Shown: positions 2,237 through 30,578, counted from the stretch's first letter. The stretch: DNA of 41,910 nt from a virus (IMGVR_UViG_3300038701_002226:1-41910); one strand, 5' to 3'. Translations and numbers: made by a program. Notes: generated by a model from the sequence alone, not told the origin.

Positions 2237-2445
2237 GGGGATAACCCGTCCTGACGCTTTATGAACTTTTGTGCAGCTGTAGCCATTACTATGGTTGCTG
2301 TAAACCCGTAGTACAGCGAGGACGCTATCTCACTTGAAGGTGTGAGCAGGGTAACAACCACCCAAACAGACATCTTAAGAGACATCCACTTACATAACAG
2401 GGCCACAAAACGTTCCTTAAGTTGTTCCGAAGGTATTTTTTTCAT
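2233..2445 (-). CDS. putative holin
   Basis: This 70-residue membrane protein sits directly upstream of the endolysin with a 4-base ATGA overlap. It has a charged N-terminus (MKKIPSEQLKERF), two hydrophobic stretches around residues 22-37 and 43-58, and a basic, polar C-terminus (KFIKRQDG). This is the usual layout of a small two-segment holin that opens the inner membrane for the endolysin. Assignment rests on size, topology and position, because holins are poorly conserved. The 69-codon frame further upstream is an alternative holin or an antiholin. Confidence 0.7.
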   Translation of the reverse strand: MKKIPSEQLKERFVALLCKWMSLKMSVWVVVTLLTPSSEIASSLYYGFTATIVMATAAQKFIKRQDGLSP

Positions 2446-2978
2446 AGAACCGCCAATAAAAGTGTTAAACTGATTAAGAATATTTCTTCATTCGCTCCTA
2501 AATACCCGTCTTTTTCTACAACCACTTCTCTGTATCTGATAGTATCTCGTCGAAATATCTCGACCTTTTCACTTTTTATAAGCAAATCAAAATTAAACGA
2601 GTCCACTGGCAATGTTGAAAAGGCCTTCACTGTCAGATTATGCGTTGCAGAACTGTCTTTAAAAGTAGACACAACAACAGGATCAGGGGACACTAACGGT
2701 ATCTCTTCCAACTTTGGTGCGGGTATAGGACTTGATGTGTAGCTTATACTGCTGCTTATACTGCTGCTTATACTGCTGCTTATACTGCTGCTTATACTGC
2801 TGCTTTTTATTGTGTTTGTGGTCTTTGTAACTTCTTCTGTTTTATTGGTGTCTACGGAAAAAGTATGGCTTATAGTCTCCGTTTTTTCCTTCTTACTGGA
2901 AGGTTTAAAAAACTCTGTGTAGTGTAGACCAAACCCGAAGACAACGCCAAGCAAAAAGAACGTGAATTTCTCTTTCAT
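2442..2978 (-). CDS. putative spanin-like lysis protein with SSIS repeats
   Basis: This 178-residue protein starts at MKEKFTFFLLG, where the ATG overlaps the preceding stop as ATGA and has AGAGG upstream. Residues 5-22 form an N-terminal signal-anchor-like segment. A Ser/Thr-rich middle follows, containing five tandem SSIS units encoded by a perfect 12-bp repeat (2742-2801), then Pro-rich sequence, a beta-rich domain, and a hydrophobic C-terminus (IFLISLTLLLAVL). Two membrane-prone ends joined by a flexible periplasmic linker, inside the lysis cassette, suggest a spanin-type function joining or disrupting the envelope. No sequence family was recognised, so the role is inferred from layout and neighbours. 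Confidence 0.55.
   Translation of the reverse strand: MKEKFTFFLLGVVFGFGLHYTEFFKPSSKKEKTETISHTFSVDTNKTEEVTKTTNTIKSSSISSSISSSISSSISSSISYTSSPIPAPKLEEIPLVSPDPVVVSTFKDSSATHNLTVKAFSTLPVDSFNFDLLIKSEKVEIFRRDTIRYREVVVEKDGYLGANEEIFLISLTLLLAVL
2742..2805 (-). repeat. 12-bp tandem repeat inside the spanin-like gene
   Basis: The unit GCTTATACTGCT (plus strand) occurs five times without mismatch at 2742, 2754, 2766, 2778 and 2790, followed by a partial copy. On the coding strand each unit reads AGCAGTATAAGC and encodes Ser-Ser-Ile-Ser. Perfect identity points to recent slippage expansion, and copy number could vary without a frame change. Confidence 0.95.
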
Positions 2979-3175
2979 TTCTTTATGCCTCTTCTTTTGT
3001 TGCGTATATCGTAACCGTAATTTATACAAATAAGCACAAGTGATATAAGTCCTAACATCCCCGTCGTATCCGCCAAAAAATCTCTGTACGTGTACGCACT
3101 CGCACTAACGGCAATACCACTAACAGCCTTTATTGTATCCATCATAAAATCCTTTAAATTAACAGTCTTAATCAT
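2975..3175 (-). CDS. small membrane protein, second holin or antiholin candidate
   Basis: This encodes about 66 residues beginning MIKTVNLKDFM. I chose the ATG at 3175 because AGGTG lies six bases upstream; a GTG at 3184 immediately after the previous stop is the alternative. One clear hydrophobic helix (GMLGLISLVLICIN) is preceded by a weaker one (AVSGIAVSASAY), and the tail is strongly basic (RNKRRGIKK). It overlaps the spanin-like gene by four bases and heads the lysis cassette. Size and topology fit a holin, so this phage may carry a holin and antiholin pair. Confidence 0.6.
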   Translation of the reverse strand: MIKTVNLKDFMMDTIKAVSGIAVSASAYTYRDFLADTTGMLGLISLVLICINYGYDIRNKRRGIKK

Positions 3176-20659: not shown

Positions 20660-21080
20660 TGCACATACCCCTTGCACACACCCTAAAATCAATTTGAATT
20701 TGATTCATTTTACTTGGAGTCAATGATACCAACCTCAAGCGGCTTTGGAGGGGTTGAGAAATGACAACAACTACTCAAGGTCATTTTAGGCAAAATAGGG
20801 TGTGGCAGGGGGGTATGTGCAAGCTAAGTTGTTGTTTTTATTAGTCGGTGCACTAGGGGGGTAGTAAAATAGTATAAAACTATTATTTTTTTTTTCTTGA
20901 GTGTCGGCAGAATCAAGCATTTTAAAAACTTTTGAGGCAATTCTAGAGGGTATGTGCAGCTTGAGGCGCACCAACGCTTTGCAGCCTTGCTTAAAGTCGC
21001 CTAAGTCGTTAAAAGTCGCTTAGAATCGCTTCTTGCAACGTTTCACGGCAAAATAGGGTATGTGCAGCAGGGTATGTGCA
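20660..21080. repeat. iteron-like GGGTATGTGCA repeats
   Basis: The 11-mer GGGTATGTGCA is found in direct orientation at 20811-20821, 20948-20958, 21056-21066 and 21070-21080 and inverted at 20660-20670. One-mismatch inverted copies lie at 20673-20683 and near 20275-20285. Two copies are preceded by GGCAAAATAGGGT. The inverted copies are on the left and the direct copies on the right, giving a roughly symmetric array as seen in iteron-type origins. Confidence 0.7.
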
Positions 21081-21546: not shown

Positions 21547-21795
21547 ATGGATTTACAACGCAATGATTTTTTTACTAAAACAACGCTGACAAATGAGCGT
21601 GGCGACATTTCTTTGCTTTTGGGCACTTCAAAGACTGAGAATGGAAATAGAAATAGAGCGTTTACGTGTTTGGCGTCTCATGCGGACTTGGACATAGTTT
21701 CAGAACCGAAGCATTTTTTCAGTTACGAAGACGCTTTAACATATGTGAACAAGTTTTCAATAAAATTTGATCTTAAGCGAGAAAGCGAGATTTAA
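21547..21795 (+). CDS. small hypothetical protein with ESEI tail
   Basis: This encodes 82 residues beginning MDLQRNDFFTKTTL. I chose the ATG at 21547 because its GTGTAAGATG context mirrors the gene before; an in-frame ATG at 21538 with GGGAGG upstream would add three residues. The protein is probably alpha/beta (ISLLLGTSKTENG, HFFSYEDALTYVNKF). The C-terminal ESEI is encoded by the first copy of the recurrent GAAAGCGAG motif. Function is unknown. Confidence 0.62.
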   Translation: MDLQRNDFFTKTTLTNERGDISLLLGTSKTENGNRNRAFTCLASHADLDIVSEPKHFFSYEDALTYVNKFSIKFDLKRESEI

Positions 21796-21796
21796 A

Positions 21797-22108
21797 ATGA
21801 ACGATTTCACGACTGCATTTAGCAACCATCACGCCAAATTTAAGAGCGGCGTTTTAAGCGATCTATGGCACGTTTTAGAACGTTATGAAGATCGTTCCGA
21901 AGGCACGGCGGCGTTTACGGTGTGCCTTGTTGGTGATAAGTACATTCTAGGCGTTTGTGATCAAGGGCAAAAAGGTTACACAAATACTAATTTAGAATTT
22001 ATCGCAACGAGCTACGAAGACTGCCGAAAAATGGTAGCGGAATTGAACAAAGATTTTTTCGGTTTGGATGCCCTTCAAGCGGCTAAAATCGTAGCAAGCA
22101 CACTTTAG
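21797..22108 (+). CDS. DLWHVLE-family small protein, copy 1
   Basis: This encodes 103 residues beginning MNDFTTAFSNHHAKF. It is clearly paralogous to the protein at 27445-27789: both have F-x(3)-H-x-x-KF, DLWHVLE, a central strand before VC, a GY-x-x-T-x-L-x-F segment, SYE, MN/LN-x-x-FF-x-L and a final IV-x-ST. Function of this pair is unknown. The start is seven bases after the motif GAAAGCGAG, with no better Shine-Dalgarno. Confidence 0.72.
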   Translation: MNDFTTAFSNHHAKFKSGVLSDLWHVLERYEDRSEGTAAFTVCLVGDKYILGVCDQGQKGYTNTNLEFIATSYEDCRKMVAELNKDFFGLDALQAAKIVASTL

Positions 22109-22125
22109 AGAAAGCGAGAATTGAG

Positions 22126-22752
22126 ATGAATAACAACGATATTATAATAAGCTTGGACTGCGGCATATACGAAGGGTTTCAAGTAACTTTAAGTGCTTGT
22201 ATAGAGCACGAACCGTTAGAAAATGCTTTCCCTGATATTCCTTTTCCTGATTTTAAAGACTTGTGCCGTAAAATAGAAAGCAATGAACTTATGTACTTTA
22301 CGGCTCAAGTAACAGTGAGCCGACAGGGGATTGTTATAGGTTCTGATCATTTGGGCGGTTGTGTATACAAAGACTTAGAAGACTTTCGGGACAATAGCGG
22401 GTGTTATGAAGATATGCGAGAACAAGCGATAAAAACAGCATACGACACGATAGAACAGATACAAAAACCGATCAAAGAAATACCTGTTTGCTTCTTTAGA
22501 GAAAAAGAGCCTGACTCAATTTTAGCTGTCTTTGTGGATTCGTTATTCTACCGTGATTCAGATAGAATCTATGATTGCTATTCATTTATAGGGCAGCACT
22601 CAACTTGTACACGAGAATACTTGGAAATGTCTTGTGTTTTGGCAAGTAAAAGCGAGTATAAGGACCTATTAGAGCATCTTAAAAGTATTTACGAAGCCGA
22701 AGGATTACGAGTATTGCAACAGACGGAAACTTTAGAGAAAGCGAGTGAATAA
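22126..22752 (+). CDS. hypothetical protein with EKASE tail
   Basis: This encodes 208 residues beginning MNNNDIIISLDCG. The N-terminal half contains a possible beta-sheet region ending in VTVSRQGIVIGSDHLGGCVYKDLEDF; the C-terminal half is more helical (SEYKDLLEHLKSIYEAEGLRVLQQ). Seven cysteines are scattered without a clear metal-binding pattern. The start is seven bases after a GAAAGCGAG copy, and another copy overlaps its 3' end. I recognise no family. Confidence 0.68.
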   Translation: MNNNDIIISLDCGIYEGFQVTLSACIEHEPLENAFPDIPFPDFKDLCRKIESNELMYFTAQVTVSRQGIVIGSDHLGGCVYKDLEDFRDNSGCYEDMREQAIKTAYDTIEQIQKPIKEIPVCFFREKEPDSILAVFVDSLFYRDSDRIYDCYSFIGQHSTCTREYLEMSCVLASKSEYKDLLEHLKSIYEAEGLRVLQQTETLEKASE

Positions 22753-22753
22753 A

Positions 22754-23425
22754 ATGTTTAACAACTTATTTAAAAAATACAAAAAAGAACAACGCAAGAG
22801 ACAAAAAAACCTTTTGACTTTTGAAGACGTTACAAGCAACGAAGTAAAAAACCTGCCACCTTACTTAAGACAATACGTGCCTATATCCTCAAAAAACAAG
22901 GTATTTACGTCTTGTAGTGCTTTGAAATGTTATTTAAAAAATCGTATCAAAACAGTTTTTCAAAGAGACATTGAAGCAATTGAGAAAAGGCTCAAAGAGT
23001 TAAGTACATACCAAAACAAAGACTTTCCCAAACAATTCACTATTGTAATTGAGTATAAACGAAACAGGACTTGGGGATACAACCCTACGGCGTCCGTATT
23101 TGTGGTAGGGGAAGGGGAAGGGGATTATTCAAGTGGTTCTATTGGCGGTTGTGGTTACGACAAAGAAAGCACCGCATTCGCACAAGTTGCTAATCAAATA
23201 CAAGGCATAAAGTATTTGCTTTACAAAGAAGCAAATAGACTGAAAAACAAAAACAAGAAATTGTCTGAAATATTTGGGTACGGTTCAGGGTACGGCGTTT
23301 TCCCCTCGTTTAGTGGTGGAGTGGGTACGAGTTGTTATTATAGTATATTTGAAAAAATAGGTTATAAAATGACTAAAACGGCGTCTACTTCGTCTTTAGA
23401 CGTGTACACAATAAGCAAAATATAA
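22754..23425 (+). CDS. conserved phage protein with GCGYDKESTA motif
   Basis: This encodes 223 residues beginning MFNNLFKKYKKEQRKRQK. The segment NRTWGYNPTASVFV followed by IGGCGYDKESTAFAQVANQ is the signature of a widespread phage and plasmid hypothetical family in which a W-G-x-N-P-x-A strand precedes G-C-G-Y-D-K-x-S-(T/S)-A. No function is established for it to my knowledge. The N-terminus is strongly basic. I chose the ATG at 22754, eight bases after a GAAAGCGAG copy; an in-frame GTG nine bases earlier overlaps that motif. Confidence 0.72.
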   Translation: MFNNLFKKYKKEQRKRQKNLLTFEDVTSNEVKNLPPYLRQYVPISSKNKVFTSCSALKCYLKNRIKTVFQRDIEAIEKRLKELSTYQNKDFPKQFTIVIEYKRNRTWGYNPTASVFVVGEGEGDYSSGSIGGCGYDKESTAFAQVANQIQGIKYLLYKEANRLKNKNKKLSEIFGYGSGYGVFPSFSGGVGTSCYYSIFEKIGYKMTKTASTSSLDVYTISKI

Positions 23426-23453
23426 AAACAAAGAAAGCGAGCTAGCTAGTAAA

Positions 23454-24521
23454 ATGAGAACAAAAGGATTCAAAACAAGCGACGTCTGCCATATGTTCGC
23501 AAATCAAACACAAGACGAAGCATACAGTAATAGCGTATATTTCCACAAAGATAACGGAGGTTCAACTATTTTTAGTTACGGTCGCCATTTTCCGATGGCG
23601 CACATTTTGAAAAATGGGTTGCTTGTTGTGAATTGTGAAAGATACTCGCCTACAACGTCAGAACATCAAAGTATTTTGCATAACGCATCTTCAAACTTAA
23701 CCAAAGTTATTGTAAAACAAATGGTATACCAAAGCTTATTTGACAATATATCTAAAAGCAAAAAAGAACTGAAAGCTTTTAGAAACAATACAGCCGACGT
23801 AGGCGAAAAGGTTATTGAGCAAACGGAGAAGCGGTTAAAGTCTGCTAAATTGGAGCTTAAGCGAGTGCACCGAACAAACATCGAGTACTATTTGGAAATG
23901 ATTCGCACCTTCATTGCCAAACAACAAAGAGCCCGCATAATTAATTATGTGGATGATATTTACAGCTATATAAACCGTTTAAGAAGATACACTACAATAT
24001 TCAACTGTGAATCTCTTGTGCCTGAAAAAATACGGGGTTTGAGTTTGAACAGTGATTTGAACACTGTTTTGGAAGCGTTTGGCGTGAATGCCAAAGAAAT
24101 TATAGAAAAGTTTATCGAAAAAGTGGACAAACAACGTCAAGCATCAGAGCAAGCCCGAAAGAAAAAAGAGGTCAAGAATCTTGAAATAATCAATAAATGG
24201 AAAGCGGGGGATTTCGTTTATTGTTTGGCGTACACAGGTTTTTCTTATCTTCGCACCCACGGCGGAGAAGTACAAACAAGCCAAGGTATAAGGCTTAGTA
24301 CGGAACAAGCCAAAAAGGTGTATTTATTTGTTTCTAAAATTTGGGAACAAAATAAAACGTGGGTAACAAGCGGCAAAGGATTTGAAATAAAAACCCTTGA
24401 CCGCCCATGGAAATTACATTCGGTAACTCATGAACTAGTTACCGCAGGATGCCACCGAATCAAGAGGCAAGAAATAGAAGAATTTGCTTTGAAAATGGGT
24501 TGGAGCAAACAAACAAAATAA
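23454..24521 (+). CDS. conserved phage protein with YSYGxHFP-like motif
   Basis: This encodes 355 residues beginning MRTKGFKTSDVCHMFANQ. The pattern SVYFHKDNGGSTIFSYGRHFPMAHIL followed by RYSPTTSEHQS recalls a common family of phage and plasmid hypothetical proteins with F-x-x-G-x-T-I-Y-S-Y-G-x-H-F-P and Y-S-x-T-T-x-x-H. A long helical middle (residues 95-250, rich in Lys/Arg/Glu) and a C-terminal domain with THELVTAGCHRIKRQEIEEF follow. Its biochemical role is unknown. The start lies 12 bases after a GAAAGCGAG copy, the widest spacing seen. It is the largest gene of the accessory block. Confidence 0.75.
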   Translation: MRTKGFKTSDVCHMFANQTQDEAYSNSVYFHKDNGGSTIFSYGRHFPMAHILKNGLLVVNCERYSPTTSEHQSILHNASSNLTKVIVKQMVYQSLFDNISKSKKELKAFRNNTADVGEKVIEQTEKRLKSAKLELKRVHRTNIEYYLEMIRTFIAKQQRARIINYVDDIYSYINRLRRYTTIFNCESLVPEKIRGLSLNSDLNTVLEAFGVNAKEIIEKFIEKVDKQRQASEQARKKKEVKNLEIINKWKAGDFVYCLAYTGFSYLRTHGGEVQTSQGIRLSTEQAKKVYLFVSKIWEQNKTWVTSGKGFEIKTLDRPWKLHSVTHELVTAGCHRIKRQEIEEFALKMGWSKQTK

Positions 24522-24562
24522 ACTAGGTACGTGAAGACGTGCCTAGAAAGGTGAAAACCAAA

Positions 24563-25099
24563 ATGAACAAAGAACAACACAACTACGACGAATCCAACCG
24601 ATTGATTGCCGAGTTCATGGGTTGGGAAAGTAATAAATACGACAATCTACCCGACAGAGTACATAAAATAACTGATTATGTAGAGAGAGGGTTACCCTTA
24701 AAACAATGTGATTATCATAAATCATGGAATTTGTTAATGCCAGTTGCAAAGGCTTGTTTAGAACAAGATTCAGAGCTTGAAGGGTGGAGCGACTTATGCG
24801 AAGCTTTAACACACGTAGACATAGAGTTTGTTTACAAGGCGATACTTGTTTTTTTGAGATCTTACAACGCTCAAAAAACAGAAATGAGCCCTTCTTGTTT
24901 GTACTATGTTGCCGCTTTCGCAGGTATAAAGGACGGAAAAGAACAACAATATTTTAAAGTGTATGAAATTATTTTAGACGTGCCAAAGTTGTGGTTTACG
25001 TTTTCTACGGACAAAACAATAAGCAATTCTGAGATTGTTTCTAAAAAGTTGGTGGAAAAAGGCTTCGGAAATCGAAAATATAAGTTAGTAGAGCTTTAA
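24563..25099 (+). CDS. FMG/YHxSW-family phage protein, copy 1
   Basis: This encodes 178 residues beginning MNKEQHNYDESNRLIAEFMG. The pair of motifs NRLIAEFMGW and YHKSWNLLMPVAKAC identifies a common but uncharacterised phage protein family. I chose the ATG at 24563 with AAAGGTG eight bases upstream, rather than an in-frame GTG at 24539. The C-terminal part (NSEIVSKKLVEKGFG) is helical. A shorter relative with degenerate motifs is at 26167-26547. This gene is not preceded by GAAAGCGAG. Confidence 0.7.
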   Translation: MNKEQHNYDESNRLIAEFMGWESNKYDNLPDRVHKITDYVERGLPLKQCDYHKSWNLLMPVAKACLEQDSELEGWSDLCEALTHVDIEFVYKAILVFLRSYNAQKTEMSPSCLYYVAAFAGIKDGKEQQYFKVYEIILDVPKLWFTFSTDKTISNSEIVSKKLVEKGFGNRKYKLVEL

Positions 25100-25115
25100 C
25101 GAAAAGGTCAACCCT

Positions 25116-25331
25116 ATGCTATACATTCAAGAAACAACTAAAATATACTCAAGGATGCCCCGCAAGCTAAAGAAAAAGTTTAAAAAATTTATAGGCAAGG
25201 CGACCCATAGGGCTTTGAAAGAGTGGCAAAGAAGATACCCGAAGCACCAAAGATACGAGTGGCATACTATTGAGAGCTCCGAAAGTCTTAGGAACTTTTT
25301 AGAGAACCGAGAGGCAAAAAATGACAAGTAA
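25116..25331 (+). CDS. small basic protein
   Basis: This encodes 71 residues beginning MLYIQETTKIYSRMPRK. About a third of the residues are Lys or Arg, so it may bind nucleic acid. AAAAGGTC lies about eight bases before the ATG. Its end overlaps the next gene by 11 bases. I recognise no family. Confidence 0.6.
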   Translation: MLYIQETTKIYSRMPRKLKKKFKKFIGKATHRALKEWQRRYPKHQRYEWHTIESSESLRNFLENREAKNDK

Positions 25332-25437
25332 AATGAAACAAGTACGAGAAGCATTTGCCCAATTTTATGCCGCATCAGGTTGCGGATGTTGTGGAAACCA
25401 TTCCGAAAGGAAAAAGCATCATGCGAAAAAAGCGTAG
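25321..25437 (+). CDS. Cys-rich mini-protein (SGCGCCGN)
   Basis: This encodes 38 residues beginning MTSKMKQVREAF, with an internal in-frame ATG at 25333. The motif SGCGCCGNHSERKKHHAKKA holds three cysteines and three histidines in a compact basic tail and could bind zinc. Similar very short GCxCC proteins occur in other phages, with no known function. It overlaps its neighbours on both sides (25331 and 25421), which is normal for this dense region. Confidence 0.5.
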   Translation: MTSKMKQVREAFAQFYAASGCGCCGNHSERKKHHAKKA

Positions 25438-25555
25438 AATGCGAGTTTGGAAACCATTGGAGCACGAACATTTAAGAACATTGAGACTATTTAAAGTGTG
25501 CCTTGTTATGTCGTTCGTGTGTTTGTTAATCGTTATTGTTTTTGGAGCAATTTAA
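25421..25555 (+). CDS. small single-pass membrane protein
   Basis: This encodes 44 residues beginning MRKKRRMRVW, with GAAAGGAA upstream of the ATG at 25421. A strongly basic N-terminus is followed by one transmembrane helix (VCLVMSFVCLLIVIVFGAI) at the very C-terminus, predicting N-in orientation. The larger open frame starting at 25355 overlaps the gene before in another frame and is unlikely. Function is unknown. Confidence 0.55.
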   Translation: MRKKRRMRVWKPLEHEHLRTLRLFKVCLVMSFVCLLIVIVFGAI

Positions 25556-25556
25556 A

Positions 25557-25748
25557 ATGAAAGTATGGGAATGTGAAATAGAATTTTCTGACGGGTTTCG
25601 AGACGTTGGGCTTGTTTGCGAGAATGACGAAACACCTGAGGGTTACGATGAAACAAGTTTTATTTGGTACGGACTGAACCCTGAAACGCACGTGGAAAGC
25701 GAAGGGGACGAATTTAAGATACTAAGCTACCGTTTGGTAAACGAATAA
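25557..25748 (+). CDS. small acidic hypothetical protein
   Basis: This encodes 63 residues beginning MKVWECEIEFSDGF. TTTGGAG lies nine bases upstream of the ATG at 25557, one base after the previous stop. The sequence suggests a small beta-sheet fold (ECEIEFSDGFRDVGLVCEN) and a net negative charge. No family was recognised. Confidence 0.6.
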   Translation: MKVWECEIEFSDGFRDVGLVCENDETPEGYDETSFIWYGLNPETHVESEGDEFKILSYRLVNE

Positions 25749-25770
25749 GCAAAAGAAAGCGAGATTTAAA

Positions 25771-26166
25771 ATGAGTGTAAAAGTATACATGGAAAGCGAT
25801 ACGCATTCCGAATTAGTGGCAGTTTTTGACACCGAAGAGCTGTTCATGTTGTGTTTGCCTGTCATTGAGAAAGAAGCAGCAAAAGACCTTATGATCATAG
25901 TTGACGTAGTGGATGAAGATTTTGAGATCATAACATCTACGGATGAAGCAAAAGAGTACTTAAATAAAAAAGGATATGTGACAGAGACCATGTGGTCAAA
26001 GTACGACATTCAAGATAATTACGAGAACGTGTCAGACGAAAAAGCTTTGGAAATATTAAACGGTGTTCTTAGGGACGAATATGTAGTGGGTGAGACGTTG
26101 GCGTCTATACGCCATATTTGCGAGGATGATTTGGGCTTGATACCAAAAGAAAGCGAGAACGAATAA
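25771..26166 (+). CDS. acidic hypothetical protein with KESENE tail
   Basis: This encodes 131 residues beginning MSVKVYMESDTHSE. It is acidic; the C-terminal half (NYENVSDEKALEILNGVL) resembles helix-rich segments seen in several small phage proteins. The start is seven bases after GAAAGCGAG with the same ATTTAAA linker found before the gene at 21797. Another GAAAGCGAG overlaps its 3' end and encodes the final ESE. Function is unknown. Confidence 0.67.
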   Translation: MSVKVYMESDTHSELVAVFDTEELFMLCLPVIEKEAAKDLMIIVDVVDEDFEIITSTDEAKEYLNKKGYVTETMWSKYDIQDNYENVSDEKALEILNGVLRDEYVVGETLASIRHICEDDLGLIPKESENE

Positions 26167-26547
26167 ATGACTAAAGAATTTTACAAATTATTTACGGAAT
26201 TTATGGGTTATGGAAGAGTCAGGAAGCTTATCCCTTCAGGAACGCCTGCATCCACAGGCGTTGTCACATTGAAAGCCCTTTACTATTCAAAAGAAGATGC
26301 GGTCAAGGATTTAGAGTATTACCAAGACAGATTCAAAACATCTTTCGAACTGCACGAGTATATAATACCTTTTGATAGTTCTTTCGATGCTTTGATTCCT
26401 GTTGTCAAGAAGATAGGTGAGGACACATCTGACTTGGATATGAGGGACTTGGAACGGCTCTCATCTGCTTTGAGTAAACTTGAGATCAGACCCCTGTATT
26501 TAGAATGTTTAAGATTAATAGCTAAGATTAAGGGTGTAACAACGTAA
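26167..26547 (+). CDS. FMG-family phage protein, degenerate copy
   Basis: This encodes 126 residues beginning MTKEFYKLFTEFMGYG. LFTEFMGY and FDSSFDALIPVVKKI align with LIAEFMGW and YHKSWNLLMPVAKAC of the protein at 24563-25099, so the two are paralogues, but the YHxSW core is altered here. The start ATG overlaps the previous stop by none and is nine bases after a GAAAGCGAG copy. Function is unknown. Confidence 0.67.
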   Translation: MTKEFYKLFTEFMGYGRVRKLIPSGTPASTGVVTLKALYYSKEDAVKDLEYYQDRFKTSFELHEYIIPFDSSFDALIPVVKKIGEDTSDLDMRDLERLSSALSKLEIRPLYLECLRLIAKIKGVTT

Positions 26548-26562
26548 ACAAAAACAATTTCA

Positions 26563-26652
26563 GCGGCGATTGGATAGGCAGAATGAGACTACGATTTACT
26601 AGCGTCTATGTCTTGCTCTAGTCCGCCTTGGGTTCGATTCCCTTGCGCCGCT
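26563..26652 (+). ncRNA. tRNA-like element, 90 nt
   Basis: The ends GCGGCG (26563-26568) and CGCCGC pair as a 6-bp acceptor-like stem. GGGTTCGATTCCC near the 3' end reads as a T-arm with a standard TTCGATT loop but only three strong stem pairs. No ordinary D-arm or 5-bp anticodon arm can be drawn. Instead GGATAG pairs with CTA-G-TCC and GCA with TGC, continuing inward to AGAC/GTCT, giving one long bulged rod. It may be a degenerate tRNA, a tRNA mimic, or a tRNA with unusual folding. No CCA is encoded. It occupies an otherwise gene-free gap of 134 bases. Confidence 0.5.
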
Positions 26653-26681
26653 TTTGAGACAAATAAATAAGAAAGCGAGAA

Positions 26682-26858
26682 ATGAAAATGGTTTTTAGAA
26701 GCTTGTACTTAAGAGATTTGAAGACAAACGAGTGGCGTTTTTATTCGAGAGTAACTGCCGCTATGTTAAACGCCCGAAGCATAATCACAAGAGATCAAGT
26801 ACGTATAGGAAGCGGATCATTGCATCAGACACGATGGTTTGTAAACATGTTTGCATAG
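26682..26858 (+). CDS. small ORF, probable N-terminal part of a frame-broken gene
   Basis: This encodes 58 residues beginning MKMVFRSLYLRDL, placed after GAAAGCGAG (a second in-frame ATG at 26688 restores the usual eight-base spacing). It ends at TAG inside the hexapeptide-repeat gene that follows in another frame. The segment IITRDQVRIGSGS looks like the first turn of a beta-helix, so this frame and the next may once have formed one protein, now separated by an indel. A genuine short gene is the alternative. Confidence 0.45.
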   Translation: MKMVFRSLYLRDLKTNEWRFYSRVTAAMLNARSIITRDQVRIGSGSLHQTRWFVNMFA

Positions 26859-27271
26859 GAGACGGTGTAAATATAGGTGAGGATGTGGTTGTTGACAGTT
26901 ACGCACAAATTGGCAGTTACGCACAAATTAGCAATTCTGTAAAAATTCAAAAGAATGCGTTTATCGAAAGCTGTTGTTGTGTTGAGGACAACATAAATCG
27001 CTACAGGTACAAATACGACGCAAACGCCTCAGGATACGATTCGGGAGGGGATTTTATAATTCGGTTAGGTTGTTCTAAGTATTCAAGGGACTGGTGGGAA
27101 GACAACTTTTGGAACAACATCCATGAGTTCCCTGATGACCCTAAAAACCCTGATTCTATACTTCGTCTTGCTGTGTTTAACCATATTTGCATGGAAGAGG
27201 ACAAACGAAACGGCGTAAAATTTGTTCAGAAAGTATTCATAGGAAAACAAACCAAAGAAAGCGAGAAATAA
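26834..27271 (+). CDS. hexapeptide-repeat (left-handed beta-helix) protein
   Basis: This encodes 145 residues from the ATG at 26834; the same frame is open to a GTG at 26732, but the extra 34 residues look non-coding. CIGDGVNIGEDVVVDSYAQ followed by IGSYAQISNSVKI is an I-G-x-x-(V/A)-x hexapeptide repeat as in left-handed beta-helix transferases. The C-terminal half is unrelated and rich in Trp and Asp (DWWEDNFWNNIHEF). No catalytic His typical of acyltransferases is obvious. It lacks its own good ribosome binding site, consistent with being the distal part of a frame-broken gene. It ends in ESEK. Confidence 0.55.
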   Translation: MVCKHVCIGDGVNIGEDVVVDSYAQIGSYAQISNSVKIQKNAFIESCCCVEDNINRYRYKYDANASGYDSGGDFIIRLGCSKYSRDWWEDNFWNNIHEFPDDPKNPDSILRLAVFNHICMEEDKRNGVKFVQKVFIGKQTKESEK

Positions 27272-27272
27272 C

Positions 27273-27443
27273 ACGGCAACAAAAGAACAAACACAAACGA
27301 CCAAGACAGCTAAGGAAATAGTTGAGGACTTGAGGTACTTATTTGGCAAGATAAACTGGGGTAAATCCAATTTAGACGCCAAAGCTATAACCGTGATGAA
27401 CGAAATAACCAAGGACATCCTAAAACTGGAAAGCGAGAAATAA
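27273..27443 (+). CDS. conserved small phage protein with apparent ACG start
   Basis: This frame encodes 56 residues (T/M)-A-T-K-E-Q, then KEIVEDLRYLFGKINW and LDAKAITVMNEI, ending LESEK. The ELRYxFGKINxG and LDAKAxxxMN pattern is one I recognise from other phage hypothetical proteins, so the frame is very likely real. It lies seven bases after GAAAGCGAG, and the next gene has the same context (AGAAATAACATGGCAACAAAAG) with ATG; here the codon is ACG. No ATG, GTG or TTG exists between the upstream in-frame stop and this point. It either uses a rare ACG start or has lost its start by a T to C change. Confidence 0.6.
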   Translation, partial: TATKEQTQTTKTAKEIVEDLRYLFGKINWGKSNLDAKAITVMNEITKDILKLESEK

Positions 27444-27444
27444 C

Positions 27445-27789
27445 ATGGCAACAAAAGTAAAAGTAAAAGTAAAAGCAAAAGACAGATTTCTAGAAACATT
27501 TAGAAAGCACAGAGAAAAATTTGTAACCCGAATATACGTAGCAAAAGATTTATGGCATGTTCTAGAAACGTGGGAGAAAGACAAAAACACGTGTTTCACA
27601 GCGGCTACGATAAAAAACAAGCAACGACTTGTAGTTTGTTATAAGGATTCAGCAGGATACCACGACACTCAACTGGTGTTCAAAACTGAAAGCTATGAGG
27701 AAGCACTAGAGATTTGTCGAGACATGAACGAAATGTTTTTCTCTTTAAGCAACGAGAAGGCTCAAAGCATCGTTTCAAGCACTATGTAA
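27445..27789 (+). CDS. DLWHVLE-family small protein, copy 2
   Basis: This encodes 114 residues beginning MATKVKVKVKAKDRF. After a basic N-terminal extension it aligns throughout with the protein at 21797-22108: KHREKF, DLWHVLETWE, LVVCYKDSAGYHDTQLVF, SYEEALEICRDMNEMFFSL and IVSSTM. Both copies start seven bases after GAAAGCGAG. A strong terminator follows 4 bases after the stop, marking the end of this accessory transcript. Function is unknown. Confidence 0.75.
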   Translation: MATKVKVKVKAKDRFLETFRKHREKFVTRIYVAKDLWHVLETWEKDKNTCFTAATIKNKQRLVVCYKDSAGYHDTQLVFKTESYEEALEICRDMNEMFFSLSNEKAQSIVSSTM

Positions 27790-27793
27790 AACA

Positions 27794-27819
27794 AAAAACC
27801 CCTAATTAAAGGGGTTTTT
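27794..27819 (+). terminator. Rho-independent terminator
   Basis: AAAAACCCC (27794-27802), an 8-base loop and GGGGTTTTT (27811-27819) form a 9-bp stem ending in a T-run, immediately after the gene at 27445-27789. Confidence 0.88.
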
Positions 27820-27895
27820 CTGGAGAGAGCGAGTAATCCTAGAAAGCGCAAACCATTTAAGAACTGTTTAAAAGCTACAACAAAATAAGAGCAAA

Positions 27896-27918
27896 AGCAA
27901 GGAGGATATATGAAGTAG
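27896..27918 (+). other. strong ribosome binding site followed by a two-codon ORF
   Basis: AGCAAGGAGGATAT is followed by ATG AAG TAG at 27910-27918. Spacing from the Shine-Dalgarno core is ideal but the ORF codes only Met-Lys. Reading past the TAG meets a second TAG five codons later. It may be a leader or regulatory minigene, or the remnant of a deleted gene. Confidence 0.5.
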
Positions 27919-27934
27919 CCGAAAAAAGAGTAGC

Positions 27935-28020
27935 AGCCCGCATATTTTGTTAATTTTACAGCGCACCTGTTTTCATTTTTCTGAAAAAGGTCTAAGGTTG
28001 AAAACCCTGTTTAGCGGGCT
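27935..28020 (+). ncRNA. candidate structured RNA (three-way junction)
   Basis: AGCCCGC (27935-27941) pairs with GCGGGCT (28014-28020) as a closing stem. Inside, ACCT-G-TTTTC pairs with GAAAA-AGGT (27965-27991), and GGTTGAAAACC forms a short hairpin close behind. Together they make a plausible three-way junction in a 255-base gene-free stretch between a terminator and the membrane-protein gene at 28075. It could be a small RNA or a leader element. I match it to no known riboswitch class. Confidence 0.45.
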
Positions 28021-28074
28021 TGTTATCTCTGGATTTTTGATAAACAACAAACGGTTTAAAGAGAGAACGGAAAC

Positions 28075-28389
28075 ATGAAAACAATAAAAAAGTTATTGTC
28101 ACTTTTATTAAGAACAACGGCGGTGGTTCTGTACTTTGCAACAGTTATCTACTGCTTTTCTGACGCAGGATTCGGGGGGACAGCCTTAATGGAGACCACA
28201 GGAAACAATATGTATTACCACACAGATTTTGGTTCGTTTTACGGGATAGTTTTAGGAGTATTTTGGTTATTGACCTCGACATTGGTTATTACAGTAACGT
28301 GTTGCTTACTTGTGTTTGTAATCGGATCAGCCGTCCCCTGTTACTTAATGGACGGTATCAAGTATTTAATCGAAGGAGAGGACAAATAA
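28075..28389 (+). CDS. small multi-pass membrane protein
   Basis: This encodes 104 residues beginning MKTIKKLLSLLLRTTA. Two hydrophobic segments are clear, at about residues 13-27 and 59-90; the second is long enough for two helices or one helix and a re-entrant stretch. The loop between contains GFGGTALMETTGNNMYYHTDF. It has a basic N-terminus and acidic C-terminus. ACGGAA lies six bases before the ATG. It follows the candidate structured RNA and precedes the methyltransferase gene by three bases. Function is unknown. Confidence 0.65.
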   Translation: MKTIKKLLSLLLRTTAVVLYFATVIYCFSDAGFGGTALMETTGNNMYYHTDFGSFYGIVLGVFWLLTSTLVITVTCCLLVFVIGSAVPCYLMDGIKYLIEGEDK

Positions 28390-28392
28390 GAC

Positions 28393-28839
28393 ATGAAGCA
28401 AGGATATTTCGGCATTGGTTGCCAAAACATGAAAACAAACCACAACTACGGCACATTATTTAGAACGGCACAGGTTATGGGAGCGGACTTCCTTTTCTTG
28501 ATAGGCCCGAGATTCAAAAGACAAGCAAGCGACACGATGAAAAGTTGGAGACACTTACCTGTTTTCCAGTACACAGATTTTTCGGACTTTCAGAAACATC
28601 GACCGTTTGATTGTAAGCTTATAGGGGTAGAGTTAGAGACTAACGCAACGGAATTAAAAGACTTCGTACATCCTAAGCAAGCCTGTTATCTGCTCGGAGC
28701 AGAGGACAATGGATTAACAAAAGAAGCATTAGTTCATTGTGATGAGATTGTCTTCTTACCAACTGAAAGAAGCTTAAATGTGAGCGTGGCGGGTTCAATC
28801 GTTATATACGACAGAATAGTAAAACAAAACTTTAAATAA
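28393..28839 (+). CDS. SPOUT (TrmH/TrmL-like) RNA 2'-O-methyltransferase
   Basis: This 148-residue protein carries the three conserved SpoU/TrmH motifs: motif 1 in NYGTLFRTAQVMGAD (here G-T-L-F-R-T-A), motif 2 in CYLLGAEDNGLTKEAL, and motif 3 in LPTERSLNVSVAGSIVIYDR. The fold forms a trefoil knot that binds S-adenosylmethionine. It methylates a ribose 2'-OH in tRNA or rRNA. Its minimal length, without extra RNA-binding domains, is close to TrmL, which modifies position 34 of some tRNAs; that substrate is only an inference. GGAGAGG lies upstream. Confidence 0.88.
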   Translation: MKQGYFGIGCQNMKTNHNYGTLFRTAQVMGADFLFLIGPRFKRQASDTMKSWRHLPVFQYTDFSDFQKHRPFDCKLIGVELETNATELKDFVHPKQACYLLGAEDNGLTKEALVHCDEIVFLPTERSLNVSVAGSIVIYDRIVKQNFK

Positions 28840-28845
28840 TAATAT

Positions 28846-28875
28846 TTGACATGAACAGTAATTCGTGTGTATAAT
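28846..28875 (+). promoter_or_regulatory. consensus sigma-70 promoter
   Basis: TTGACA (28846-28851), an 18-base spacer and TATAAT (28870-28875) match the -35 and -10 consensus exactly. It begins right after the methyltransferase stop and drives the gene at 28907 and those following. Confidence 0.85.
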
Positions 28876-28906
28876 AGGATGCAACTAGCAAGGAGCATAA
28901 GAATAA

Positions 28907-29080
28907 ATGACAACACAGTATAAAGAACCAAGACTAGGCAAGTCAAAGAACGATTCAAAATGTAAATTCTGTGGCAATACGATACACAAGTTTGAGGAAT
29001 GTGTAATAATTCCTCGTGAGAAAAAAGTAGCGCACACACCTTGTTACCACAAATCAGGAGGAAAGAATCTTGAACAGTAA
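28907..29080 (+). CDS. small zinc-ribbon-like protein
   Basis: This encodes 57 residues beginning MTTQYKEPRLGKSK. A KCKFCGNTI knuckle is followed by EECVIIP and then HTPCYHKSGG, giving CxxC plus further Cys and His residues suited to binding zinc. Such small proteins often bind nucleic acid or RNA polymerase; no partner is evident. It is the first gene after a perfect sigma-70 promoter, and its leader includes AGCAAGGAG 11 bases before the ATG. Confidence 0.68.
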   Translation: MTTQYKEPRLGKSKNDSKCKFCGNTIHKFEECVIIPREKKVAHTPCYHKSGGKNLEQ

Positions 29081-29276
29081 ACCGTTAATAACATACGACG
29101 AAATCAGAGAGCGGTCAGGAAATGTACGCACACACTCCTCAGGACAATTGTTGAACGCATCCTCTGAGTTGATTTATTTTGCTTTTAACCAACCTGAAGT
29201 TCGTTTTCGCCAAAACACCTTGTGGCCTTCTCAGACGAACCCCAAATCTTTGTTATTAGGAGTTGCCAGTGATTAA
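29070..29276 (+). CDS. small hypothetical protein (TTG start)
   Basis: This encodes 68 residues beginning MNSKPLITYDEIRERSG. The TTG start is preceded by AGGAGG at good spacing and overlaps the zinc-ribbon gene by 11 bases. A helix may cover SGQLLNASSELIYFAF. No family was recognised. Its stop overlaps the GTG of the next gene. Confidence 0.6.
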   Translation: MNSKPLITYDEIRERSGNVRTHSSGQLLNASSELIYFAFNQPEVRFRQNTLWPSQTNPKSLLLGVASD

Positions 29277-29820
29277 GATTTTCTCAATACAACCATTAGT
29301 TCCTTCTATTACGAACAAGACACACGCAGCTTTCGTTAACTCGTGCATCGACAAGCGATACGCCATAGAAGCAAAAAAAACACATCAGACGCTTGTTTTC
29401 AAGGTTGACCGCAGACCTGTGGAAACACAGGAGCAACTGGACACCGCTTTAGATTTTTTACGAAGCGTAAATTTAGTTGAAAGAACAAAAACACAGGAAG
29501 AGTTGGACGATTTAGCTGAGTACTACAACAAACTGTTGAACACCTCTCGGCACGGTTGTGAAATGATTGAAGTAACAACATACAACGACGATAAGAGCCA
29601 AGAAATTGTTTTCTATCCCTCACAACTAAACATCGAACAACTATGTGAAATAGGGTCGACAGAGGCAAAAAGTCTGATCGTTCGTAAAGACAAACTAACA
29701 GCAAAAGACCTAGTCAAGCTTGGAGACGAATTATGCAACGGTACTATTTTTCATTCGGAGACGACCACAATCACACAATTAATGGGATTGATCTGGACAA
29801 AAATTGCCTTTTGGAAGTAG
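29269..29820 (+). CDS. hypothetical protein
   Basis: This encodes 183 residues from GTG at 29269, with TAGGAG about nine bases upstream; an in-frame TTG at 29263 is the alternative. The middle is helical and acidic (LDTALDFLRSVNLVERTKTQEELDDLAEYYNKL reads as two helices), and a C-terminal part (SLIVRKDKLTAKDLVKLGDEL) also looks helical. Its last 88 bases overlap the next gene in another frame, so the 3' part evolves under two constraints. No family was recognised. Confidence 0.6.
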   Translation: MIKIFSIQPLVPSITNKTHAAFVNSCIDKRYAIEAKKTHQTLVFKVDRRPVETQEQLDTALDFLRSVNLVERTKTQEELDDLAEYYNKLLNTSRHGCEMIEVTTYNDDKSQEIVFYPSQLNIEQLCEIGSTEAKSLIVRKDKLTAKDLVKLGDELCNGTIFHSETTTITQLMGLIWTKIAFWK

Positions 29821-29981
29821 AAGCACCTGATTTAGCACGGGCTAGGGTTGATGTTTTTGACTCGCCATTGGGCGCTAAGTGGGCTTTTTGTTACACGGAG
29901 TTGGAAGCAAAAGGTATAAGAGTAAAATACTCCTTGCGTATTGTGCAAGGGAAAGAAATCGGAATTGGAGAACAACCGTGA
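29733..29981 (+). CDS. YYFxFG-family small phage protein
   Basis: This encodes 82 residues beginning MQRYYFSFGDDHNH. The pattern YYFSFG, LEVEAPDLARARVDVFDSPLG and WAFCYTELEAKG belongs to a recurrent small phage family in which a Y-Y-F-x-F-G start is followed by an AR motif and a W-A-x-x-Y-T-E segment. Function is unknown. GGAG lies seven bases before the ATG. The gene overlaps the previous one by 88 bases. Confidence 0.7.
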   Translation: MQRYYFSFGDDHNHTINGIDLDKNCLLEVEAPDLARARVDVFDSPLGAKWAFCYTELEAKGIRVKYSLRIVQGKEIGIGEQP

Positions 29982-30283
29982 AAAAATACCAACCTAAAGA
30001 ACAACCTAAAAAATCGTGGGCAGCAGAACACATAGAGCACTCCTTTCTTGGCAGCATGTTAGTTGCGGTAGACACAACCACTGGTAAAAGAATATGTGCG
30101 CTGCTTGGCTTTGGCAGAAGAGTATACCCTTATGCGGGAGCCAAAGAGACCTTAGAGCTTGAAGGCTATGACCCGAGCGAGAACTATACCCAGTGGACAC
30201 AAGCAGGTTCCTACACACTAGAGGACGTAGTGACAGCTAAAGTAATTTCCTCAGAATATTTAAACCAAGAAAGCGAGAAATAA
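29978..30283 (+). CDS. hypothetical protein with QESEK tail
   Basis: This encodes 101 residues from GTG at 29978, which overlaps the preceding TGA as GTGA and has TTGGAG upstream. I reject the longer upstream extension because it lies out of frame within the gene before. The protein begins MKKYQPKEQPKKSW; the central part is GFGRRVYPYAGAKETLELEGYD. The final ESEK is encoded by a GAAAGCGAG copy. Function is unknown. Confidence 0.65.
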   Translation: MKKYQPKEQPKKSWAAEHIEHSFLGSMLVAVDTTTGKRICALLGFGRRVYPYAGAKETLELEGYDPSENYTQWTQAGSYTLEDVVTAKVISSEYLNQESEK

Positions 30284-30284
30284 A

Positions 30285-30578
30285 ATGAAACAGTTAAAAA
30301 TCCTAAAGCTAAAAGAACAAGGGGTTAAAGAAATATTCAAAAGAGCCGAGGCGTCGTTTGACCACCATGTAGAGTACCCTACGATTTTCCCAAATTATTG
30401 GGTCGCCCCTAAGGATGTTTTCTCAGGCTACGACCAAGTAATAGTGGAGATAGAGGAACACACAAGCCAAACCAGAACAGACATCACCACAACAGCCGTT
30501 TTCAACATAGAGACGTACGACGACCTGATGGTTCGGTTAGTAAAACAAACCATCACACCTAAAAACAAAGGCAACTAA
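30285..30578 (+). CDS. hypothetical protein
   Basis: This encodes 97 residues beginning MKQLKILKLKEQG. The start is seven bases after the last GAAAGCGAG copy in the genome. The centre, VIVEIEEHTSQTRTDITTTAVFNIETYDDL, reads as a beta hairpin, with a short basic tail. No family was recognised. Confidence 0.65.
   Translation: MKQLKILKLKEQGVKEIFKRAEASFDHHVEYPTIFPNYWVAPKDVFSGYDQVIVEIEEHTSQTRTDITTTAVFNIETYDDLMVRLVKQTITPKNKGN

Follow-up and report, generated by a model that had tools for sequence, protein, structure and literature searches.

A nine-base start-associated motif in a virus genome and in unrelated phages, possibly read as a bulged, extended Shine-Dalgarno sequence

Why should one nonamer stand at ten gene junctions of a single viral genome, each time close to the position of a ribosome-binding site (RBS)? 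A first-pass annotation of a 41,910-base virus record (below, the window, i.e. the whole stretch of DNA analysed) had noted ten copies of GAAAGCGAG on the plus strand, in place of a Shine-Dalgarno (SD) sequence, and both the coordinates and the strand proved exact throughout (Table 1). When the nonamer was counted on both strands against shuffled controls, as that annotation had proposed, dinucleotide shuffles yielded a mean of 0.27 copies (maximum 3) versus the ten seen, and a second-order Markov model placed it first among the over-represented 9-mers of the window (10 vs. 0.32). The minus strand carried no copy at all, no further exact copy was present in the window beyond the ten junction sites, and copies with one mismatch were few; measured against the refuting conditions that the annotation had named, these results favour a genuine junction signal.

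The window comprises an entire virus record, with genes for tape-measure, portal, terminase, primase and DNA polymerase, while ARAGORN found no tRNA genes in it. Megablast, as well as queries with the terminase, the primase and the pair of paralogues listed in Table 1, returned no close relatives, and the phage collection contained none. Nine proteins from the block of small genes gave weak tblastn matches in Tenacibaculum phage Gundel_1 and Erythrobacter phage XM05, and the motif was absent before the matching genes of both.

Several other features of the genome were recorded along the way. A GroES-like co-chaperonin is encoded at 752–1057 (PF00166, E 4e-20), and the open reading frame (ORF) at 2442–3029 contains a small tandem repeat (2745–2801, minus strand), in which AGCAGTATA recurs five times with a period of 12 bases. 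The long gap between divergent gene blocks contains, at 20660–21080, five exact copies and one single-mismatch copy of GGGTATGTGCA in both orientations, which are possibly operator or origin repeats. Within the block of small genes lie a SpoU-type RNA methyltransferase (28393–28839; PF00588, E 5e-25) and a tRNA-like stretch (26553–26655; GCGGCG...GGGTTCGATTCCC...CGCCGC) that received no ARAGORN call and only a short, chance-level tmRNA match in Rfam. A hexapeptide-repeat (LbH) protein is apparently split over two frames there (26682–26858 and 26732–27271), which points to a frameshift, either genuine or introduced during assembly.

Table 1. Copies of the nonamer in the window and the reading frames associated with them (gaps in bases)
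Feature	Position	Strand	Upstream context	Downstream start (gap)	Remarks
Copy 1	21781..21789	+	Codes ESE(I, stop) of gene ending at 21795	ATG 21797 (7)	
Copy 2	22110..22118	+	Beyond upstream gene (stop at 22108)	ATG 22126 (7)	
Copy 3	22737..22745	+	Other frame of upstream gene (LEKASE, stop)	ATG 22754 (8)	
Copy 4	23433..23441	+	Beyond upstream gene	ATG 23454 (12)	
Copy 5	25755..25763	+	Beyond upstream gene	ATG 25771 (7)	Nonamer plus 12 flanking bases in common with copy 1
Copy 6	26149..26157	+	Codes ESE(NE, stop)	ATG 26167 (9)	
Copy 7	26671..26679	+	No upstream gene covers the site	In-frame ATGs 26682 (2) and 26688 (8)	
Copy 8	27257..27265	+	Codes ESEK, stop	ACG 27273 where ATG expected (7)	
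Copy 9	27429..27437	+	Codes ESEK, stop	ATG 27445 (7)	29-base junction in common with copy 8, one mismatch
Copy 10	30269..30277	+	Codes ESEK, stop	ATG 30285 (7)	
103-aa gene behind copy 1	21797..22108	+			Paralogue of 27445–27789, 36% over 102 aa
114-aa gene behind copy 9	27445..27789	+			Paralogue of 21797–22108
56-aa open frame behind copy 8	27273..27443	+		ACG where the twin junction (27445) has ATG	

The motif is tied to starts of translation by its spacing. Nine of the ten copies were followed by an ATG at SD distance, so that the annotated start codon behind every copy held with one exception: the copy at 27257, in a duplicated junction, precedes an ACG, and the frame behind it has lost its start codon or else begins at a non-standard one. 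A gap of seven bases had been given for six copies and was recovered at six, counting the one before the ACG; overall, gaps ranged from 7 to 12, and the copy at 26671 departs from this if the nearer of its two in-frame ATGs is used (2 rather than 8). The claim that genes elsewhere employ AAGGAG-type sites was broadly correct, namely for 31–41 kb, and sites of SD type are interspersed with copies of the motif at 28–30 kb as well.

How, then, does the nonamer relate to the SD itself? It had been thought to have only GAG in common with it, which turned out to be wrong. Without its C, AGAAAGCGAG becomes AGAAAGGAG, the exact complement of CUCCUUUCU, a sequence that forms the extended 16S rRNA 3′ terminus of many bacteria; AGAAAG-C-GAG thereby equals an extended SD plus one extra C. 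In Neisseria meningitidis, the 16S 3′ end was mapped to CCUCCUUUCU or CCUCCUUUCUA (PMC6288834). With the former as an assumed tail (the host's may differ) and the C bulged, the RNAduplex energies of the ten motif sites ran from –8.8 to –11.4 kcal/mol, and eight of them fell between –9.5 and –10.0 kcal/mol. Random stretches averaged –4.1 kcal/mol, and canonical SDs of the window mostly ranged from –5 to –11 kcal/mol (one reached –14.8), making the bulged duplex as stable as most of them. The E. coli tail, which terminates in CUUA where Bacillus subtilis has CUUUCU, gave the motif sites only –4.1 to –6.6 kcal/mol. The motif accordingly resembles a canonical SD in position, spacing, GAG register and, after removal of one base, complementarity to the 16S tail 5–10 bases from the start. 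It differs in that each window copy leaves one C unpaired inside the GGAG core, precluding contiguous pairing with CCUCC, in that the CUUUC end of the tail would be required, and in being restricted to some phages.

Taken together, it is likely that the motif is a start-associated sequence with a role in translation, and the earlier suggestion of an unusual ribosome entry signal gains support from the extended-SD match and from the stability of the bulged duplex with the CCUCCUUUCU tail. With modest confidence, we consider that it probably works as a bulged, extended SD. GAAAG (usually AGAAAG) would then pair with CUUUC(U) at the 3′ terminus of the host 16S rRNA, presumably a CUUUCU terminus; the C would be extruded on the ribosome, and GAG(G), at its normal spacing from the start, would pair with the neighbouring (C)CUC core, serving small genes that may be expressed early. 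Among the arguments against this reading, a bulge costs energy where an unbulged SD would be simpler, and the window shows no variation of the C, which a bulged position would permit.

Viral contigs other than the window allowed the extra base to be examined at a larger number of sites. Among 171 deduplicated viral loci, with ascertained sites masked and association scored against the ATG of an ORF (the contigs themselves having been picked partly by the motif), canonical AAAGGAG lay before an ORF ATG in 205 of 460 cases. Sites in which a C or T separates the adjacent Gs of AAAGGAG gave start-linked fractions of 30/73 (AAAGCGAG) and 32/72 (AAAGTGAG), as opposed to 3/89 for C (AAAGGCAG) and 12/71 for T (AAAGGTAG) when the extra base was shifted by one place. 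Substitutions within the GGAG core left 4–22% of sites linked to starts, mostly 10% or fewer. Bulged sites showed the same start spacing as canonical ones, and 88% of them were immediately preceded by G (20% for canonical sites), as would be expected if the CUUUC end must pair in compensation.

At non-coding sites of the selected contigs, the extra base was A in 8, C in 15, G in 1 and T in 10 cases. A strict pyrimidine rule, which might have served as proof of pairing with a G, was weakened by this occurrence of A and by the fact that AGC and AGT both encode serine. Most coding copies read GAA-AGY-GAG, and their serine codon AGY accounts for part of the preference for C or T.

Use of the bulged form is not widespread. 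In a random set of 118 viral contigs, AAAG(C/T)GAG occupied an RBS position in none of 26 (C) and one of 14 (T) instances, and little or no start use of it was apparent in Anaerococcus, Ruminococcus and Phyllobacterium, 400 kb having been scanned for each (Ruminococcus, 3/18 for C and 3/10 for T). A general tolerance of ribosomes for bulged SDs is ruled out by these sets, which point instead to a habit of some phages and not of bacterial ribosomes generally. Across 149 Bacillota and 190 alphaproteobacterial genomes, GAAAGYGAGG (the next base being fixed as G) mostly preceded an ATG zero to three times per genome, and no lineage with heavy use was seen among them.

Which phages share the habit? 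A pattern scan of viral contigs returned 88 loci, many with a single match; single-copy matches were not counted, since the A and T variants together were at least as common. Some contigs carried several copies, mostly directly before an ATG. Five whole records, from unrelated contigs, contained 7, 8, 7, 5 and 5 sites of GAAAG(C/T)GAG followed by ATG (G078, G065, G250, G008 and G006, respectively), mostly close together among small genes, and the reversed pattern used as a control scored zero in each of them. The only gene families that the motif-bearing contigs have in common with the window are GroES, terminase, a kinase-like protein and DNA polymerase. For GroES, homologues in several other viral contigs had GAAAGCGAG directly before the gene.

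With the C form as a short query, phages of the ocean bacterium Pelagibacter were the top matches. Start-linked sites were found in the cultured pelagiphages HTVC204P (three, with starts at 1229, 1367 and 1555) and HTVC034P, HTVC203P, HTVC100P and Skadi-5 (one each), HTVC100P having an additional A form. An 18-nt junction, GAAAGCGAGGAATAAATG, is identical in the latter four phages and recurs with one added A as the first copy of HTVC204P, and the genes behind these junctions look unrelated in sequence. The motif encodes an upstream ESEE end in HTVC204P, HTVC034P and Skadi-5 and is non-coding in HTVC203P and HTVC100P. Two of the HTVC204P genes were also located behind the motif in a metagenomic contig (L011). 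Like the other motif-bearing phages, pelagiphages use ordinary SDs too. A literature search with the 9-mer gave no phage-RBS paper by title among the matches listed, and a search combining pelagiphage with Shine-Dalgarno found no paper.

The nearest known relatives of the motif are the start-associated sequences (SAS) of Cluster K mycobacteriophages and Cluster EF Microbacterium phages. The Cluster K SAS is a 13-bp element, GGGATAGGAGCCC, with an intact AGGAG core and 11–19 copies per genome, is rare in the host, and is often adjoined by an inverted-repeat extended element (ESAS) (Pope et al. 2011, PMC3203893). In common with it, our motif is short, asymmetric and conserved beyond the need of pairing, and stands in near-identical copies at the RBS position before unrelated genes, in a single orientation relative to transcription (the SAS, mostly so). 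Here, however, the element spans 9–10 bp and its SD core is interrupted by C or U (AG-C-GAG in the window). Ten copies and a conserved motif at the RBS position likewise recall the Cluster EF SAS, which differs in its consensus GGGAAAGGACCCC with a continuous AAGGA, its upstream extended element and its hosts (PMC7302621). As the motif has neither a continuous AGGAG core nor an extended inverted repeat (one weak palindrome near one site was all that the window offered), it was not filed as an SAS. Another comparison concerns phage operators. Cluster A mycobacteriophages possess stoperators, which act on transcription through a repressor. These, too, are repeated short asymmetric sites, of 13 bp (PMC3203893), from which the motif differs by a spacing tied to start codons, as for translation.

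Conservation beyond what an SD needs, including that of the unpaired C, could also point to an operator: GAAAGYGAG at the RBS would be bound by a small RNA or by an RNA-binding protein of phage or host, and the small genes would be co-regulated, up or down. The same over-conservation argument was made for the SAS (PMC3203893), and the clustering of motif-bearing genes would suit an operator. We nevertheless regard it as unlikely: no candidate regulator was common to the motif-bearing contigs and the window, no fold, hairpin or inverted repeat was common to the sites of the window, and C and T forms alternate within one genome in other contigs.

Somewhat more doubtful still is the idea, favoured by the first-pass annotation, that the repeats are mainly homology linkers for the exchange or duplication of small cassettes, with ribosome binding secondary. 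Some copying of junctions did occur. At least eight further flanking bases were in common in four of the 45 pairs of window sites (0.02 expected), one of these pairs being 27257 and 27429 with their duplicated junction of 29 bases, and the pelagiphages have a near-identical junction before unrelated genes. Paralogous pairs bordered by the motif had been cited in support; the block contains one, the genes at 21797 and 27445, and no others. Most sites of the window, by contrast, have nothing in common outside the 9-mer, and a linker leaves the SD-like spacing and the GAAAG extension unexplained. Nine bases are shorter than known recombinases require, and so short a stretch alone is not known to support homologous recombination. 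The flank-sharing pairs and the paralogues thus indicate that some copies spread with their flanks, most carrying the 9-mer alone.

With similar reserve, one may imagine GAAAGYGAG as a private initiation code of unrelated phages, whose small genes would be translated differently from those of the host by means of a dedicated factor or modified ribosomes; we consider this improbable. Very unlikely is a host whose anti-SD has gained a G (CCUCGCUUU) and matches the motif exactly, which would make it a plain SD read by unusual ribosomes and would mean that the host 16S 3′ end is not CCUCCUUUC. The added G would pair with C and U, the main bases at the extra position, but no such tail was detected in 84,980 species (a weak scan, its control pattern having caught 16S ends in 2 of 20 genomes), the same phages use ordinary SDs as well, and a survey of 20,648 16S ends reported no variant anti-SD with a perfectly matching variant SD (PMC6107228).

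The overlap of the motif with coding sequence raises a last alternative. The annotation had it encode the ESE tails of upstream proteins, which applies to five window copies; at 22737 the upstream gene uses a different frame (KASE), and the remaining four copies fall beyond the upstream ORF. In viral contigs, the ESE frame accounted for 90 of 103 coding copies, a figure inflated by the search pattern, and for 35 of 49 after masking. C-terminal ESE was spelled GAAAG(C/T)GAG in 31 of 35 cases, i.e. by just two of 24 possible codon spellings, compared with 15 of 145 internal ESE occurrences, and this bias argues for selection on nucleotides. That the motif is a protein artefact, a favoured acidic Glu-Ser-Glu tail of small proteins happening to overlap the next start, is hardly credible despite the prevalence of the ESE frame, given that this spelling contrast largely refutes protein-level selection of the tails and that five of the ten window copies either lie outside coding sequence or are read in a different frame.

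Small genes of several unrelated phages carry the motif, often in a compact module where it also supplies the final ESE codons of the upstream gene and where a stop and then the ATG of the next gene come behind it. On our reading, selection on its nucleotides maintains the motif, and duplication or exchange of small genes sometimes carries it along together with its flanks. If bulged pairing holds, GAAAGCGAG should be favoured by a CUUUCU tail over the E. coli tail, with GAAAGTGAG, GAAAGAGAG and GAAAGGAG as comparators, and the presence of the motif among small genes of cultured pelagiphages provides known host–phage pairs in which a laboratory test is possible. The motif would then add another example, from unrelated phages, to the start-associated sequences left unexplained in 2011. 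Should the bulged pairing prove real, gene finders that rely on a continuous SD would miss a class of phage starts, and the accepted rules of SD pairing would need an exception.
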